36,443 nucleotides of DNA from an uncultured Acetobacteraceae bacterium (lineage in GTDB: Bacteria; Pseudomonadota; Alphaproteobacteria; Acetobacterales; Acetobacteraceae): the NCBI GenBank assembly GCA_903877125.1, contig CAIRCM010000228.1, positions 1 to 36,443 of the forward strand, given 5' to 3'. The position numbers were made by a program, and so were the translations under genes. The notes under the pieces were generated by a model, which saw only the letters and a list, made by a program, of their open reading frames with translations, was not told the origin of the DNA and ran no database searches. This document shows, one piece after another, positions 22,405-36,443 of this stretch. Each line of letters starts with the position of its first letter. Positions within the stretch are counted from its first letter, which is position 1.

Positions 22405-22425
22405 CGGAATGTCGGTGCAGCCGAC

Positions 22426-22484
22426 CCTCGTGATTTGTCCGGCCGGATTGCGGCGAGGTGAAAGAAGCGCGCTAAAGAGGCCAG
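22426..22484 (+). promoter_or_regulatory. SAM-II riboswitch upstream of metZ
   Basis: The leader contains the SAM-II (metA motif) hallmarks in order. P1 is formed by CCTCG at 22427-22431 and CGAGG at 22455-22459. The conserved GTGATTTG loop is at 22431-22438. CCGGCCGGATTGC follows, and GCTAAAGAGGCC at 22472-22483 supplies the 3' strand of the pseudoknot with the loop GGCC. SAM-II binds S-adenosylmethionine and in alphaproteobacteria normally precedes metA, metX or metZ, repressing translation when bound. About 70 nt separate it from the metZ GTG, longer than is usual. Confidence 0.85.
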
Positions 22485-22552
22485 CGTCCGGTCCAAATTT
22501 TCAGGGCCGAAGCTGCTCGACGGTCGGTCCATCGTGAGAAGGACCACACCCA

Positions 22553-25060: not shown

Positions 25061-25375
25061 ATGGCGCCGCGCTGGGACCGAAGCAAAGAACGCCTGCGCA
25101 GCCATCTTTTTCGCGCCTGGACCGCGTTGGCTGTGCTGGCCGGCTTTGTCTATGGGCTGGTCTACGCACCGGAATGGCTGACCTGGTGGAAACACGCGAC
25201 GAACGCGATGGTCGAAGCCGGGTGCGGCCTGCTCCCTTATCCCTGGGGCGATCGGGTCGAGGCGACCCTGGGCAATTTCGGCATGTGGGTGCAGATCACC
25301 CTCGCGATCCTCGCGTTCCGGTCCCTTGTTTGGTTGCTGATGACCGCGACGGGCCTGGTTTGGCGGCGCCGCTGA
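25061..25375 (+). CDS. Small membrane protein of unknown function
   Basis: This 104-residue protein has a basic N-terminus (PRWDRSKERLRSH), a first hydrophobic segment at about 17-36, a middle part with several Trp, and a second hydrophobic segment at about 75-99 ending WRRR. GAGGGCGAG precedes the ATG. The family is not recognised. It follows folE closely, and its TGA abuts the stop codon of the convergent lipoprotein gene (TGATCA), leaving no intergenic space. Confidence 0.65.
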   Translation: MAPRWDRSKERLRSHLFRAWTALAVLAGFVYGLVYAPEWLTWWKHATNAMVEAGCGLLPYPWGDRVEATLGNFGMWVQITLAILAFRSLVWLLMTATGLVWRRR

Positions 25376-25978
25376 TCAACGCGGCGGTGCTGGCACGAAC
25401 CGGGGTGCCGCGAGCGGCGTCGCGTCCACCGCGCCGGGAACGGCCGTGACCTCCTCGGCCAGCCAGTTCTTGAGCTTGGTGCGGGTCTGGTGCTCCAACT
25501 CGATATTCATTTCGTCCATAACGCCCGAGATCATATCGTGCAGCAGGTCCTGCTTGTCGCCGATATGGCCGGTATGGGTCCGCGTGACAGGAACCCGAAC
25601 GTAACCAAGCGGCTGTCCGTCGTCGCCGACGATCTCGATCTTCACATCCATCGAACAGCGGATTTCGTCGCCTGACTGTGTGAGCGATGCGTCGGAAATC
25701 GACACAACCGCGCGCCCCTGGCTGCCCAGGGCCTTCAGCCGGTCCTCCAGCATCTGATGCAGCGTGGCCAGAGGATCGACCGGTGAGTCCAGGCTGATAT
25801 CGGGGGATTTGCCGGATGGGACGAACCGCGTTTGGATTTCGATCGCCTTCACCGAAAGATCGATCGGCTTGAGGTAATCGTAGCGCAGTGGCGGGTAGAC
25901 TTTCGGCTCTCCACCGCATGCCGCGAGCACGAAGGGCAGCAACAGGCTGGCGCGGCGGGTCAGGCGGAGAAAGGACAT
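25376..25978 (-). CDS. Putative lipoprotein
   Basis: This 200-residue protein has a lipoprotein signal peptide: basic MSFLRLTRR, hydrophobic core, lipobox LAAC with Cys21. The mature part is predicted outer- or inner-membrane anchored and contains RVPVTRTHTG and amphipathic helices (DLLHDMISGVMDEMNIELEHQ). The start at 25978 is favoured because it gives the compact signal; an in-frame Met lies at 25996. No family recognised with certainty; DUF-type lipoproteins of this length exist in Rhodospirillales. A 210-nt region separates it from the histidine kinase gene. Confidence 0.7.
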   Translation of the reverse strand: MSFLRLTRRASLLLPFVLAACGGEPKVYPPLRYDYLKPIDLSVKAIEIQTRFVPSGKSPDISLDSPVDPLATLHQMLEDRLKALGSQGRAVVSISDASLTQSGDEIRCSMDVKIEIVGDDGQPLGYVRVPVTRTHTGHIGDKQDLLHDMISGVMDEMNIELEHQTRTKLKNWLAEEVTAVPGAVDATPLAAPRFVPAPPR

Positions 25979-26188
25979 GGTGATCGAGGCTCCCAATCGG
26001 CTCCGGCTGCATAGCGCGACCGCGTGGCGGCGTCACGATCCCGCGCGGCGTTCCGACGGGTTTTGCAATGGCCCGGCGGCAGCCGCGAAGCCTGTTTGGC
26101 CCTCTTCGCCGTATCGCCCCTGGCCACCGATCGTCCGGCAAGGCGTGCAGCCCGGAGGCCTGCCGCATCGACCGCAGCGTGATCGCCA

Positions 26189-27523
26189 TCACACCGGCAG
26201 CCTGACCTGCGCTCGCAGCCCGCCGAGTGGCGAGTTGCCCAGCACGATGTCGCCACCATGCGCCCGGACGATATCGCGCGCGATCGTCAGGCCGAGACCG
26301 GTGCCGCCATCGGTGTCGCTTTCGAATGGGCGAAACACGCTCTCCCGCCGGTCCTCGGGAATGCCCGGTCCATCGTCGTCGACGGTGACCAGCACCGAAC
26401 GGCCCTGCGGTTCGGCGGTCAGCAGCACATGATGTGCGTGGCGGCTGGCATTATCGACCAGGTTGGTGATCGCCCTTCGCACCGCCCCGGCCCGCAGCGA
26501 TAGGTTCAGGTCGCTGGGGGCGCTCAACGTCACCGTTTTGCCGGATCGCCGAGCACCAGCCGCGACATCGTCCAACAACGCCGCCAGATTGACCGGCTCC
26601 GCCTGCTCCGCCGCCTCCCCGCGGGCAAAGGCGAGGTAGGCGCTGATCATGCCTTCCATTTCGGCGAGGTCGGCGGCCATTTCATCGATGTCCTGCGACA
26701 GTGCATCCGTGCGGGGCAGCATCTCAACCGACAACCGGAGCCGGGTCAGCGGTGTACGAAGATCGTGCGACACGCCAGCCAGCATTTCGGTGCGCTGGGC
26801 GAGGAAGCGGCGGATGCGATCCTGCATGCGATTGAAAGCGGCCGCGGCTTGCCGGACCTCGGTCGCGCCTTCCGGCCGTATTGGGCCACCATCGCGGCCG
26901 ATGCCGAAGGCCTCGACCGCCGTGGCAAGCCGGCGGATCGCCTTGACCTGGTTGCGCATGAACAGCGCGGAAACCCCGAACAGCAGTGCCGCCGATCCCA
27001 CGACCCAGATCACGAACAGATAAACCGCTGACGTGTAGAGACGCTTGCGCGGCGCCTCGACCTCCAGCACCCCCGTCGGGGCCTGGACGTGGATGAGCAC
27101 CGAGCGGGGGTCCGACGACCAGTCCATCGTGAAGGGACGCTGGAGTTGGTCGGCCAGGGCGGCATCCAGGTCGTCGTCCATTGGACCGGGAACGTTGACC
27201 CAGGGCCTGGGCACCAGAACCTGATCGGGGATCAACCGGATCGTCAACGCATAGTGCCGGCGGGCATCCGCCAGGATCCATTCGGCGTTCTCCGGTCCGG
27301 GAAAGCGCTGCATCAGGCCCACGATGCTGGCGATCTCCCCGGCCACGCTGCCAGTGAGACGGCGGGAGACGACGTCGAGGTGGCTGCCATAGAAGATCCA
27401 AAGCGCCACGACCTGCAACAGGATCAGCGGCACGAGGATCATCAGCAGGCTGCGCCACAGGAGCGAGCGCGGCATCAGCCGGCGAACACCGCCGCCGCTG
27501 AGGAACGGCACGCGTACCCGCAT
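26189..27523 (-). CDS. Sensor histidine kinase, EnvZ-like
   Basis: This 444-residue inner-membrane kinase has TM1 at about 24-46, a periplasmic domain to about 163, TM2 at about 165-188, then HAMP (190-243). The H box VSHDLRTPLTRLRLS has His253; the N box NLVDNASRH is at 354-362, G1 DDDGPGI at 382-388 and G2 GGTGLGL at 406-412. All catalytic parts are intact. The gene begins 4 nt after the stop of the OmpR-type regulator, so they form a two-component operon together with an upstream MarR gene. The signal is unknown. Confidence 0.93.
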   Translation of the reverse strand: MRVRVPFLSGGGVRRLMPRSLLWRSLLMILVPLILLQVVALWIFYGSHLDVVSRRLTGSVAGEIASIVGLMQRFPGPENAEWILADARRHYALTIRLIPDQVLVPRPWVNVPGPMDDDLDAALADQLQRPFTMDWSSDPRSVLIHVQAPTGVLEVEAPRKRLYTSAVYLFVIWVVGSAALLFGVSALFMRNQVKAIRRLATAVEAFGIGRDGGPIRPEGATEVRQAAAAFNRMQDRIRRFLAQRTEMLAGVSHDLRTPLTRLRLSVEMLPRTDALSQDIDEMAADLAEMEGMISAYLAFARGEAAEQAEPVNLAALLDDVAAGARRSGKTVTLSAPSDLNLSLRAGAVRRAITNLVDNASRHAHHVLLTAEPQGRSVLVTVDDDGPGIPEDRRESVFRPFESDTDGGTGLGLTIARDIVRAHGGDIVLGNSPLGGLRAQVRLPV

Positions 27524-33062: not shown

Positions 33063-33890
33063 CTACCGTAGTTCGAAGCCCAGGTTGCGCAGCGCTTCCT
33101 TCATCCGGTCGCGGCCGTGCATCGCCGGCACGTCCTTCAGGCGGTTGGTCGCCTGGAGGGTCCAGTCCTGCTCCTTCATGCCCTGCTCGCGCATGAAATC
33201 CCGAGCGACGCCGTTATAGCGTTCCACAGCGTCCCGCTTCAGGGTGGCATCGTACTGCTCGTGGTGGAGCACAATATCCTGCGGCAGGCGCGGCTTGATG
33301 CCGGTGTCCTTGGCCGGGTCGGGATAGCCCACCGCCATGCCGAATACCGCGAAGACATGCGGCGGCAGGTTCAGCTCCGCGGCGATCTCTTCAGGGTGAT
33401 TGCGCACGGCGCCAACATACACCGCGCCCAGCCCGATCGACTCCGCCGCGATAAACGCCGACTGCGCGGCCAGCGCCGCGTCGACCACGCCCAGAATGAA
33501 CGCTTCGGTATAATGCGTCGCTTCGGCCTGGGTCTGCCGGTCCGCGGCGATCTGGTTGATACGGTTCAAATCCGCCAGCCACATCAGCATCAGCGGCGCA
33601 TCGCGGATGAACTGCTGATTTCCCGCCAGGGTCGCGATACGGGCCTTGCGTTCGGGCTCCCGCACCGCCACCACGCTCCAAACCTGAAGGTTGGAGGACG
33701 TCGAAGCCGATTGCGCGGCCGCGACCAGCAGCTCCAGTGTTCCCTCTGGCAGTGTCTCCGGCAGGAAACCCCGCACTGAGCGGTGGTTGAGGATGGTGGC
33801 GATGGTTTCGTTCCAATGCGCCGGGGCGGCGGCATTGTCGCGGTTACGTTGGCGCAGCAGCGCGGTCGCGGCGTCGAGGTCGGCGGACAT
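33063..33890 (-). CDS. Nitroreductase family protein (NfsA-like)
   Basis: This 275-residue FMN/NADPH oxidoreductase has the HRSVRGF motif at about 36-42 (the family R-S-x-R block), AAAQSASTSSNLQVWSVVAV, AESIGLGAVYVGAVRNHPEEIAAEL, and VFAVFGMAVGYPDPAK. This arrangement is of the NfsA/FRP subgroup that reduces quinones or nitro compounds. The CRP-type palindrome 101 nt upstream could affect it, but no good -10 is positioned for that. It is separated from zwf by a 262-bp region holding a candidate small RNA. Confidence 0.9.
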   Translation of the reverse strand: MSADLDAATALLRQRNRDNAAAPAHWNETIATILNHRSVRGFLPETLPEGTLELLVAAAQSASTSSNLQVWSVVAVREPERKARIATLAGNQQFIRDAPLMLMWLADLNRINQIAADRQTQAEATHYTEAFILGVVDAALAAQSAFIAAESIGLGAVYVGAVRNHPEEIAAELNLPPHVFAVFGMAVGYPDPAKDTGIKPRLPQDIVLHHEQYDATLKRDAVERYNGVARDFMREQGMKEQDWTLQATNRLKDVPAMHGRDRMKEALRNLGFELR

Positions 33891-33990
33891 TCAAATCTCC
33901 GGATCGGAAGGGGATGCCGCATCATCGCCTTACCGCGTGCGAGAGGCAAATCCACCCGACAAATCGCACGGAAGTGGCCCTTTTTTTCGC

Positions 33991-34012
33991 AAATGTGAAC
34001 TGCGTCACATTT
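33991..34012. promoter_or_regulatory. CRP/FNR-type palindrome TGTGA-N6-TCACA
   Basis: TGTGA (33994-33998) and TCACA (34005-34009) are separated by 6 nt and flanked by AAA and TTT, an exact match to the E. coli CRP consensus palindrome. Its centre, 34001.5, lies about 42 nt before a plausible start at 34043-34045 reached from AATGAT (34032-34037), the class II CRP spacing. A CRP-family protein is therefore the likely binder; the regulated transcript is inferred to run on the plus strand. Confidence 0.6.
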
Positions 34013-34043
34013 TTTTCGGTGGCATCCGGGGAATGATGGGGAA

Positions 34044-34152
34044 CCGGACGCGTTTCCCCAACAGAGATGTCGTCGGTGGGATCCTAGCGGATCCCGGTCA
34101 ACCCGGACCACCCTTGGCGGCTCAGCCACACCCCTGGCTGAGCCGCATTTTT
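34044..34152 (+). ncRNA. Candidate small RNA ending at an intrinsic terminator
   Basis: Predicted from signals only: CRP-type site, -10-like AATGAT, hairpin GGGATCC/GGATCCC (34078-34084 with 34089-34095, loop TAGC) and an intrinsic terminator at 34117-34152. No plus-strand protein gene is supported here; an in-frame ATG at 34033 opens a frame that runs into antisense zwf without codon-usage support. The transcript would lie between nitroreductase and zwf, and its 3' end would touch the zwf stop codon. Start and existence need experimental proof. Confidence 0.4.
34117..34152 (+). terminator. Intrinsic terminator facing the zwf 3' end
   Basis: Perfect 12-bp GC-rich stem (34117-34128 with 34135-34146), 6-nt loop CACCCC, then ATTTTT. 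The T-run is on the plus strand only, so it terminates plus-strand transcription; it does not fit zwf itself, which is on the minus strand and ends at 34153. Confidence 0.75.
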
Positions 34153-35628
34153 CTATCCCGCTTCTTCGTTCCAGGTGCGTCCGTCCCGCTCGATCAGGGC
34201 GATCGACGCCGTGGGTCCCCAACTGCCAGCCGCATATAACCGGGGCAGGTCGGTCGAACCGGCCCAGGCATCCAGGATTGGCTCGACCCAGGTCCAGGCG
34301 GCCTCCACTTCGTCACGACGCATGAACAGGGTCGCATCGCCGCGGACAGTATCCATCAGCAGACGTTCGTACGCGTCGGGGAAGCGTATGCCGAACGCGG
34401 TGTCGAAGCGGATATCCAGGCCAGTAGGCGACAGGCGCAGCCCGCCAGGGCCTGGATCCTTGGTCATGACGTCCAGGCGCATACCTTCTTCCGGCTGCAG
34501 ACGGATCACCAGCCGGTTCGGTTGCCGCGGTCCGGCGGAGGGCGGGAAAAGCGAGAACGGCTGATCTTTGAACTGCACCACGATCTCGGACACTTTGCGC
34601 GGCATCCGCTTACCGGTGCGCAGATAGAACGGCACGTTGGCCCATCGCCAGGTGCGGACTTCCGCCTTCAGCGCAACGAAGGTTTCCGTGGCGCTGGGTT
34701 CGTCCGCACCGAGGTCGGTCCGATAGGCGCCGACCGATTGACCGCTGATCGCGCCGGCACTGTACTGCCCGCGTACGGTCTCGGTGCCGATCCGGTACGG
34801 TTCGATCGGGCGCAAAGCCCGCAGCACCTTCAGCTTTTCATCGCGCACCCGGTCCGCGTTCAGGCTGACCGGCGGTTCCATCGCGATCAGGCACAAAAGC
34901 TGCAACAGGTGGTTCTGCACCATGTCGCGCATCGCGCCGGAGGTGTCGTAGTAACCCGCGCGTCCCTCGACGCCCACCGTTTCCGCGACCGTGATCTGGA
35001 CATGGTCGATCACGTCCGAAGTCCATAGCCGCTCGAAAATCGTATTGGCGAAACGCAGCGCCAGCAGGTTCTGGACGGTCTCCTTGCCCAGGAAGTGGTC
35101 GATCCGATAGGTCTGTGCCTCTGCGAACACTTTTCCGACCTGATCGTTGATCTGCCTGGCCGAGGCCAGATCCCGCCCGATCGGCTTTTCCAGCACAACA
35201 CGCGACTGCGGGGTAACAAGACCGGCAGCCGCCAGATTCCGGCAGATCGGCCCGTACAGCGCCGGCGCGGTCGCCAGATAGAAAACCCGGACCCGGTCAG
35301 GATCGAGCAGATCGCTCAGCGCCCCGAAACTGACATTCTCTGCCGCGGCGTCGAGCCCGACATAGCGGATGCACCGCAGAAACCGCTCCAGCGTGGCAGG
35401 ATCCAGGTCGGCGGGAACAACATGCTCTTCCAGCGCCCCTCGCGCTCGGTCCCGATACGCGTCATCCGTCAACGCCGACCGGGCGGCACCGATGATACGC
35501 GAACCCTCGGGCATCTGGCCGTCGCGAAAGCGGTAATAGAGCGCGGGGAGCAGCTTGCGCAAAGTCAAGTCGCCGGTCGCACCGAACACGACGCCGTCGA
35601 ACACGGGTACGGGAATAATTTTCGCCAT
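34153..35628 (-). CDS. zwf: Glucose-6-phosphate 1-dehydrogenase
   Basis: This 491-residue enzyme makes 6-phosphogluconolactone and NADPH, the entry to the pentose-phosphate and Entner-Doudoroff routes. N-terminal GATGDLTLRKLLPAL at 16-30 is the cofactor motif; EKPIGRDL (147-154) and RIDHFLGKE (175-183) are active-site signatures. Length is typical. AGGCGGAC lies before the ATG. The stop touches the plus-strand terminator. Being last in the minus run, it is separated from the cupin gene by a 125-bp region with a hairpin. Confidence 0.96.
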   Translation of the reverse strand: MAKIIPVPVFDGVVFGATGDLTLRKLLPALYYRFRDGQMPEGSRIIGAARSALTDDAYRDRARGALEEHVVPADLDPATLERFLRCIRYVGLDAAAENVSFGALSDLLDPDRVRVFYLATAPALYGPICRNLAAAGLVTPQSRVVLEKPIGRDLASARQINDQVGKVFAEAQTYRIDHFLGKETVQNLLALRFANTIFERLWTSDVIDHVQITVAETVGVEGRAGYYDTSGAMRDMVQNHLLQLLCLIAMEPPVSLNADRVRDEKLKVLRALRPIEPYRIGTETVRGQYSAGAISGQSVGAYRTDLGADEPSATETFVALKAEVRTWRWANVPFYLRTGKRMPRKVSEIVVQFKDQPFSLFPPSAGPRQPNRLVIRLQPEEGMRLDVMTKDPGPGGLRLSPTGLDIRFDTAFGIRFPDAYERLLMDTVRGDATLFMRRDEVEAAWTWVEPILDAWAGSTDLPRLYAAGSWGPTASIALIERDGRTWNEEAG

Positions 35629-36308: not shown

Positions 36309-36443
36309 GTGCGTCCCGAAGGACGCGATCACCTCGTGGGTGAAAGTCCCACCCGGGCAATGGTCGGTTGGCCCGGTAGCTGGCAGGCGGTTTAACTGGG
36401 TAACTGGTTGGATCGAAGCCCTGCGACAAACCTCGCCATGGGC
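36309..36443 (+). mobile_element. Group II intron, 5' end (truncated by window edge)
   Basis: The stretch from GTGCG at 36309 shows the start of a bacterial group II intron. The GTGCG-type 5' end folds with GCGTCC-CGAA-GGACGC, then GTGGGTGAAAGTCCCAC at about 36335-36351, a hallmark of domain I in bacterial introns. The remaining sequence would contain EBS elements, then a reverse transcriptase/maturase outside this window. It is on the plus strand, in front of the divergent cupin gene. Confidence 0.8.

Follow-up and report, generated by a model that had tools for sequence, protein, structure and literature searches.

The question raised by this locus is whether the gap between two genes harbours a small RNA gene of its own, under the control of a CRP-type regulator. 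The window, that is, the whole 36,443-nucleotide stretch of DNA from an uncultured Acetobacteraceae bacterium analysed here, carries a nitroreductase-family gene (33063-33890) and zwf (34153-35628) on the two flanks of the locus. An earlier note on this DNA had described a set of plus-facing elements between these two genes, namely a perfect palindrome, an AATGAT hexamer at the class II distance, a GGGATCC/GGATCCC hairpin and a terminator with T5. All of these were present where it had placed them, and both flanking genes lie on the minus strand. The CRP-type operator, AAATGTGA-N6-TCACATTT, occupies 33991-34012 and was assigned no strand; it was defined by a search of the window and by its conservation in the family described below. 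Its TGTGA-N6-TCACA core lies at 33994-34009 with ACTGCG as the spacer, and its palindrome is perfect. The -10-like hexamer AATGAT (34032-34037, plus strand) is located 30.5-35.5 nt beyond the palindrome centre (34001.5), a class II distance which suggests a transcription start near 34043. With the start placed by this spacing and the end by the terminator, the predicted small RNA is about 109 nt long (about 34043-34151, plus strand), in good agreement with the RNA of about 110 nt proposed earlier. The covariance models R1 and R2, both of which have the window copy in their training sets, match 34040-34151 with E-values of 1.1e-18 and 2.2e-17, respectively.

Four hairpins, all on the plus strand and common to the family, are predicted in this RNA. 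Stem-loop 1 (34043-34077) holds CCCCAAC (34056-34062) in its loop and is supported by the fold and by covariation, with 9/9 modelled pairs changed on both sides. In stem-loop 2 (34078-34095), the arms GGGATCC (34078-34084) and GGATCCC (34089-34095) enclose TAGC, and 4/5 modelled pairs are changed on both sides. The small hairpin 3, GGTCAACCCGGACC (34096-34109), is near-invariant in sequence and lacks covariation. The intrinsic terminator (34117-34152) consists of a 12-pair stem (34117-34146) followed by T5 (34148-34152), and across the family all 12 modelled pairs are changed on both sides.

Within the window alone, a folding energy of -55.9 kcal/mol (z-score -5.4) was obtained for the predicted RNA (34044-34153), and none of 200 shuffles folded as low. 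The extended palindrome occurs once when up to 3 mismatches are allowed, with 0 mismatches, against 0.09 occurrences expected, and the ten-base core has a single exact occurrence and 2 occurrences with at most 1 mismatch, against 0.62 expected. The terminator of the RNA is the sole terminator-like site within 33500-34700; shuffles contain 1.3 such sites on average and therefore the terminator alone is not significant. A sigma-70 promoter scan of the same interval found none. The recurrence of the parts together in relatives is stronger evidence than these window statistics. Elsewhere in the window, a 9/10 CRP-like site at 26178-26193 lies at the start of a minus-strand ORF (25296-26192); about 0.6 such matches (at most 1 mismatch) are expected by chance.

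A DNA search detected the region in other genomes of the genus, and the same anatomy was recognised at other loci. The pattern CCCCAACN{22,50}GGTCAACCCGGACC was found in 14/33 genomes of the genus and its reversed form in 0/33. Among named genomes, the same exact pattern matched 26 contigs, 19 of which had the anatomy by eye: 16 from Acetobacteraceae (the MAG KR_bin-3349 contributing two), two from Asaia bogorensis and one (L058) labelled Nitrosovibrio, which shares its match position with a contig of the window's genus (G032:C30). The named-genome relatives that carry the pattern are MAGs. The remaining 7 matches were coding-like, had no site or terminator, and were dropped as probable chance. 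Covariance model R1 gave matches in 25/397 genomes of the family Acetobacteraceae, from 13/102 genera, at E<=0.001 with strict filters; three genomes were removed as carrying another RNA, which left 22 genomes and 10 genera. Model R2 matched 25/33 genomes of the genus at E<=0.01, and 23 were kept at E<=2.4e-5, 18 of them in the training set and 5 new. Matches in G009 and G015 (E 0.004-0.007) and second matches in G027, G014 and G023 were dropped by eye as weak. In total, we kept 37 copies from 34 Acetobacteraceae genomes of 10 genera. Since the searches over 40 genomes used strict filters and scored 9 candidates per genome, absences are weak evidence, which also applies to the "other" genomes used in the Fisher tests given below. 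Three genomes (G221, G034 and G004), all with fragmented assemblies, contain two copies; the pair in G034 is in tandem (L073:1501-1835), with a CRP site for each copy.

In a class-wide scan of 385 genomes, the sole strong match was the window's own. Matches in 6/385 further genomes (L124-L129, 29.6-33 bits) were rejected, as neither a CRP site nor the conserved elements could be seen in them. Rfam 15 gave no match at the gathering score, to CyaR or to any other family, at the window locus or in 20 loci of relatives. The sole Rfam family at E<=10 over 33900-34300 was tfoR (RF02100, E 0.024), which scored 19.1 bits, below its gathering score of 70, and was taken as chance. The locus belongs to a structured RNA family without a match in Rfam 15; the kind, a CRP-activated sRNA, is already known, and it is the family that would be new. 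The element excluded from the R1 set (L082:1501-1625, L083:1501-1595 and L085:1501-1594, in G242, G170 and G207) is a different conserved RNA-like element from three Acetobacteraceae genera. It combines a hairpin (TCCGATCGGA) with a stretch resembling GCCGGCTCGCCC and a GCGCCCGGTCACCCCCCTGACCGGGCG terminator, and is likewise without an Rfam match.

The structure is supported by covariation throughout the family. Among 20 sequences, 23/30 pairs are changed on both sides in a plain MAFFT alignment from which the structure itself was derived, and among 31 sequences the count is 25/30 in an alignment made to fit the model and therefore biased in its favour. In both sets 0/500 shuffles reach any of the measures, and sliding the pairing partners removes most of the signal. 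Covarying hairpins closed by a U-tract terminator are what is expected of an intergenic structured sRNA. Hairpin 1 holds CCCC(A/G)A in 34/37 copies, and in 30 of these 34 at least 6 of 8 loop bases are unpaired. CCCCCAA loops are seen in L023, L034 and L120, whose promoters have no good CRP site, and in L044, which has a 9/10 site. In hairpin 3, ACCCGGAC is present in 33/37 copies, and four diverged copies (L078, L081, L084 and L114) keep CAACCCGGACC and lose the GGTC side of the stem; it is therefore the linear sequence that is conserved. Such a pattern would suit a pairing or binding element.

The operator recurs together with the RNA. A site with at least 9/10 identity to TGTGA-N6-TCACA is present in 31 of the 36 copies that have enough upstream DNA to be assessed, centred 36-40 nt upstream of model position 1, whereas only 4/1800 dinucleotide shuffles of the upstream stretches reach 9/10 anywhere. 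The earlier note would have been contradicted by relatives that lack the palindrome and the terminator together, and this was not the picture obtained; the model used to collect the 37 copies includes the terminator hairpin, but not the palindrome. When the 31 promoters are aligned on the site, a weak, CATnnT-like -10 element appears at +29 to +34, with A in 81% at the second position. The AATGAT of the window lies one base beyond this element and its first base falls in the 81% A column. The aligned -10 position fits the class II geometry, and the near-fixed spacing of the site with this weak -10-like element downstream is what would be expected of a CRP operator at a class II promoter. In a separate pattern search, on genomes that overlap with the set above, a CRP site followed by AACCCGGACC at 70-100 nt was found in 18/397 genomes of the family (7/102 genera), and the reversed pattern in 1/397. 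A good site is missing from 5/36 copies, those of G007, G027, G005 and G025 and the second copy of G004. One half-site is left at the usual distance in L023, L115 and L117, from three genomes of the genus without a good CRP.

A regulator of the matching type is encoded in the same genome. The C-terminal half of a Crp-type protein, with the helix ATRESVNKQMR, was found at the start of one contig and the N-terminal half on another, the gene being split over two contigs in the assembly. A helix of the type R-E-x-V-N-K presumably reads TGTGA, as in GlxR and mycobacterial CRP. The full-length CRP homologue of a relative matches solved CRP-family structures with E-values down to 2.7e-33, the best match being PDB 7pza, titled putative cAMP-binding protein-catabolite gene activator. 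We take this structure to be Clr of Sinorhizobium meliloti. Clr reads HGTYHCNNNNGRWACA and not TGTGA-N6-TCACA (PMC10127613).

The presence of CRP follows the state of the site within the genus. In Fisher tests that ignore phylogeny, use cut-offs set after the matches had been seen and include several incomplete genomes, a match to the CRP C-terminal half at E<=1e-10 occurs in 18/18 genomes with an intact site at their first copy and in 1/4 with a decayed one (P = 0.0026), and at E<=1e-5, where G025 is counted, in 18/18 against 2/4 (P = 0.026). The decayed-site genomes comprise G007, which has CRP, G027 and G005, which have none, and G025, with only a 28% match at 1.8e-7. CRP is also present in G022, where the contig ends before the promoter. 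Over the whole genus, and with the same limits, CRP was found in 20/23 genomes with the RNA and in 5/10 without a kept copy (P = 0.036). Outside the genus, with the "other" genomes taken in handle order, a close CRP (at least 47% identity) is encoded in 9/11 sRNA-bearing genomes and in 9/32 others (P = 0.0035), and any CRP match at E<=1e-15 in 11/11 and 14/32 (P = 0.00097). Site decay therefore seems to accompany CRP loss in the genus. On the other hand, G007 and G004 encode a CRP homologue despite copies without a good site (in G004 the first copy has an intact site and the second, L120, has none), and in G095 and G147, which keep the site, the best match to CRP reaches only 34% identity. Of the CRP/FNR-family control suggested earlier, the CRP part is upheld by the conserved site, the encoded homologue and the parallel decay, and the FNR part was rejected, the palindrome being of the CRP type.

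The genes around the RNA are not constant. At 13/37 copies the upstream side holds a nitroreductase homologue that points away from the RNA, and in 13/34 genomes the fetched flanks contain zwf on the downstream side, pointing towards the RNA; some of these genomes are outside the genus. Other neighbours include a glutamate-type dehydrogenase, a DEAD helicase, T6SS Hcp, EAL/GGDEF and CoA-transferase genes, among others; these were mechanically picked as the nearest ORFs, and of the 44 ORFs (22 loci) 30 were run against Pfam, 13 of them without a match. As the neighbours vary, the RNA is best seen as a free-standing gene. The tie to carbon metabolism put forward in the earlier note is a weaker one, as it draws on the zwf neighbourhood, one of several, and on the usual role of CRP.

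These neighbours invite other explanations. CRP sites can serve divergent promoters, and given the 13 copies with a nitroreductase gene facing away, the palindrome could serve that gene, or both genes, with the hairpins being only a terminator region. We regard this as improbable, since the distance from site to RNA is kept as given above while the RNA and nitroreductase matches are separated by anything between 148 and 461 nt at the 11 loci of the genus where the gene is present, and the site persists at the many copies without it in the fetched flank, which argues that the site belongs to the RNA. A bare terminator would also leave the covariation of hairpins 1 and 2 unexplained. The palindrome may, even so, act on both genes. 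The recurrence of zwf beside the RNA, also outside the genus, could instead point to a cis element or a 3' UTR of a neighbour such as zwf, acting locally. But zwf lies on the opposite strand, other copies adjoin different genes and three genomes (in fragmented assemblies) have two copies, and a local element of this kind is very improbable.

Two further alternatives concern what the RNA does. It might titrate a protein, as a sponge or a 6S-like decoy, and not pair with mRNAs, the near-invariant GGTCAACCCGGACC hairpin being the protein site. The sequence of hairpin 3 is kept without covariation and its complement is not clearly enriched in six genomes; against it, the four diverged copies retain CAACCCGGACC after losing one side of the stem, and no known protein motif was identified. 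We consider this unlikely. That the locus encodes a small protein was rejected as extremely improbable: the window copy contains a 6-codon frame (MSSVGS), but 20/37 copies have no ATG, GTG or TTG frame ending inside the RNA and the remaining frames are mostly unalike.

With the family, its structure, the operator position, the terminator and the genes for the CRP-type protein and Hfq read from the sequence, we consider it likely that the locus is a free-standing gene for a CRP-activated, probably Hfq-dependent, trans-acting sRNA. A CRP-type protein with its cyclic nucleotide would bind 33991-34012, at about -41.5, and would activate, rather than repress, transcription from about 34043 in the class II manner. 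The transcript of about 109 nt would end at the terminator (34151), fold into the four hairpins and act in trans, most likely with Hfq, the gene for which is present in the genome. Pairing with mRNAs would be through the exposed CCCCAAC loop, the AACCCGGACC element or both, and the sRNA would thereby carry the CRP (nutrient or second-messenger) signal to the post-transcriptional level.

Searches for targets of loop 1 and hairpin 3 in six genomes gave no firm target. The complement of CAACCCGGAC had 175 matches against 152 for the reversed pattern, with the RNA gene itself included, and is not clearly enriched. For loop 1, TGTTGGGG-N1-14-ATG had 228 matches against 65 for a reversed pattern whose different composition makes the control unfair; 26 of the 228 were inspected, 17 in G000 and 9 in relatives, the latter mostly chosen for a shared spacer. 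One loop-1 site close to a start codon is shared by four genomes, where it overlaps a VLGL* end and the start of the next frame. The two frames look to us like neighbouring acyl-CoA dehydrogenase genes. With both frames meeting at the site, coding and ribosome-binding constraints can explain its recurrence, and this candidate target is a lead only.

The closest analogue in mode of action is CyaR (RyeE), an enterobacterial sRNA whose transcription is activated by Crp-cAMP (PMC9002310, citing De Lay and Gottesman 2009). The RNA described here would be a candidate CRP-activated small RNA like CyaR, but it comes from a different clade and its loci, as described above, have no Rfam match. Within the Alphaproteobacteria, CgrA of Rhodospirillum centenum is a cGMP-using CRP homologue that reads TGTGA-N6-TCACA (PMC4681086), and so the ligand here might be cGMP instead of cAMP. 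CgrA is, in contrast, a protein regulator of cyst development, and an sRNA of this kind was not found in the accessible portion of that paper. Gluconobacter appears to lack CRP (PMC8102297). The open-access literature searched, as far as its available text goes, describes no natural sRNA of Acetobacteraceae and holds no record of this RNA family, and no such RNA is described in the available portions of PMC8102297, PMC7347698, PMC10127613, PMC4681086 and PMC9002310.

An sRNA family with a built-in CRP operator would offer direct access to the study of cyclic-nucleotide signalling in Acetobacteraceae, and the natural losses of CRP and operator make the link between CRP and the RNA testable by comparison. 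The covariance model lets annotators locate the sRNA gene. A broader idea, which we hold tentatively and with rather more doubt than conviction, is that these genes form an uncatalogued sRNA regulon of the Acetobacteraceae under CRP (or a CgrA-like, cGMP-using protein), with two near-invariant pairing elements, in which the RNA was kept and its promoter rewired after CRP loss; the job of the RNA would then be separable from the cyclic nucleotide signal.

Two other RNA elements were seen in the window. A SAM-alpha riboswitch aptamer (RF00521) is located at 22417-22496, nothing unusual in Alphaproteobacteria, and a group II intron match (RF02003) begins at 36334-36443, where it is interrupted by the window end.
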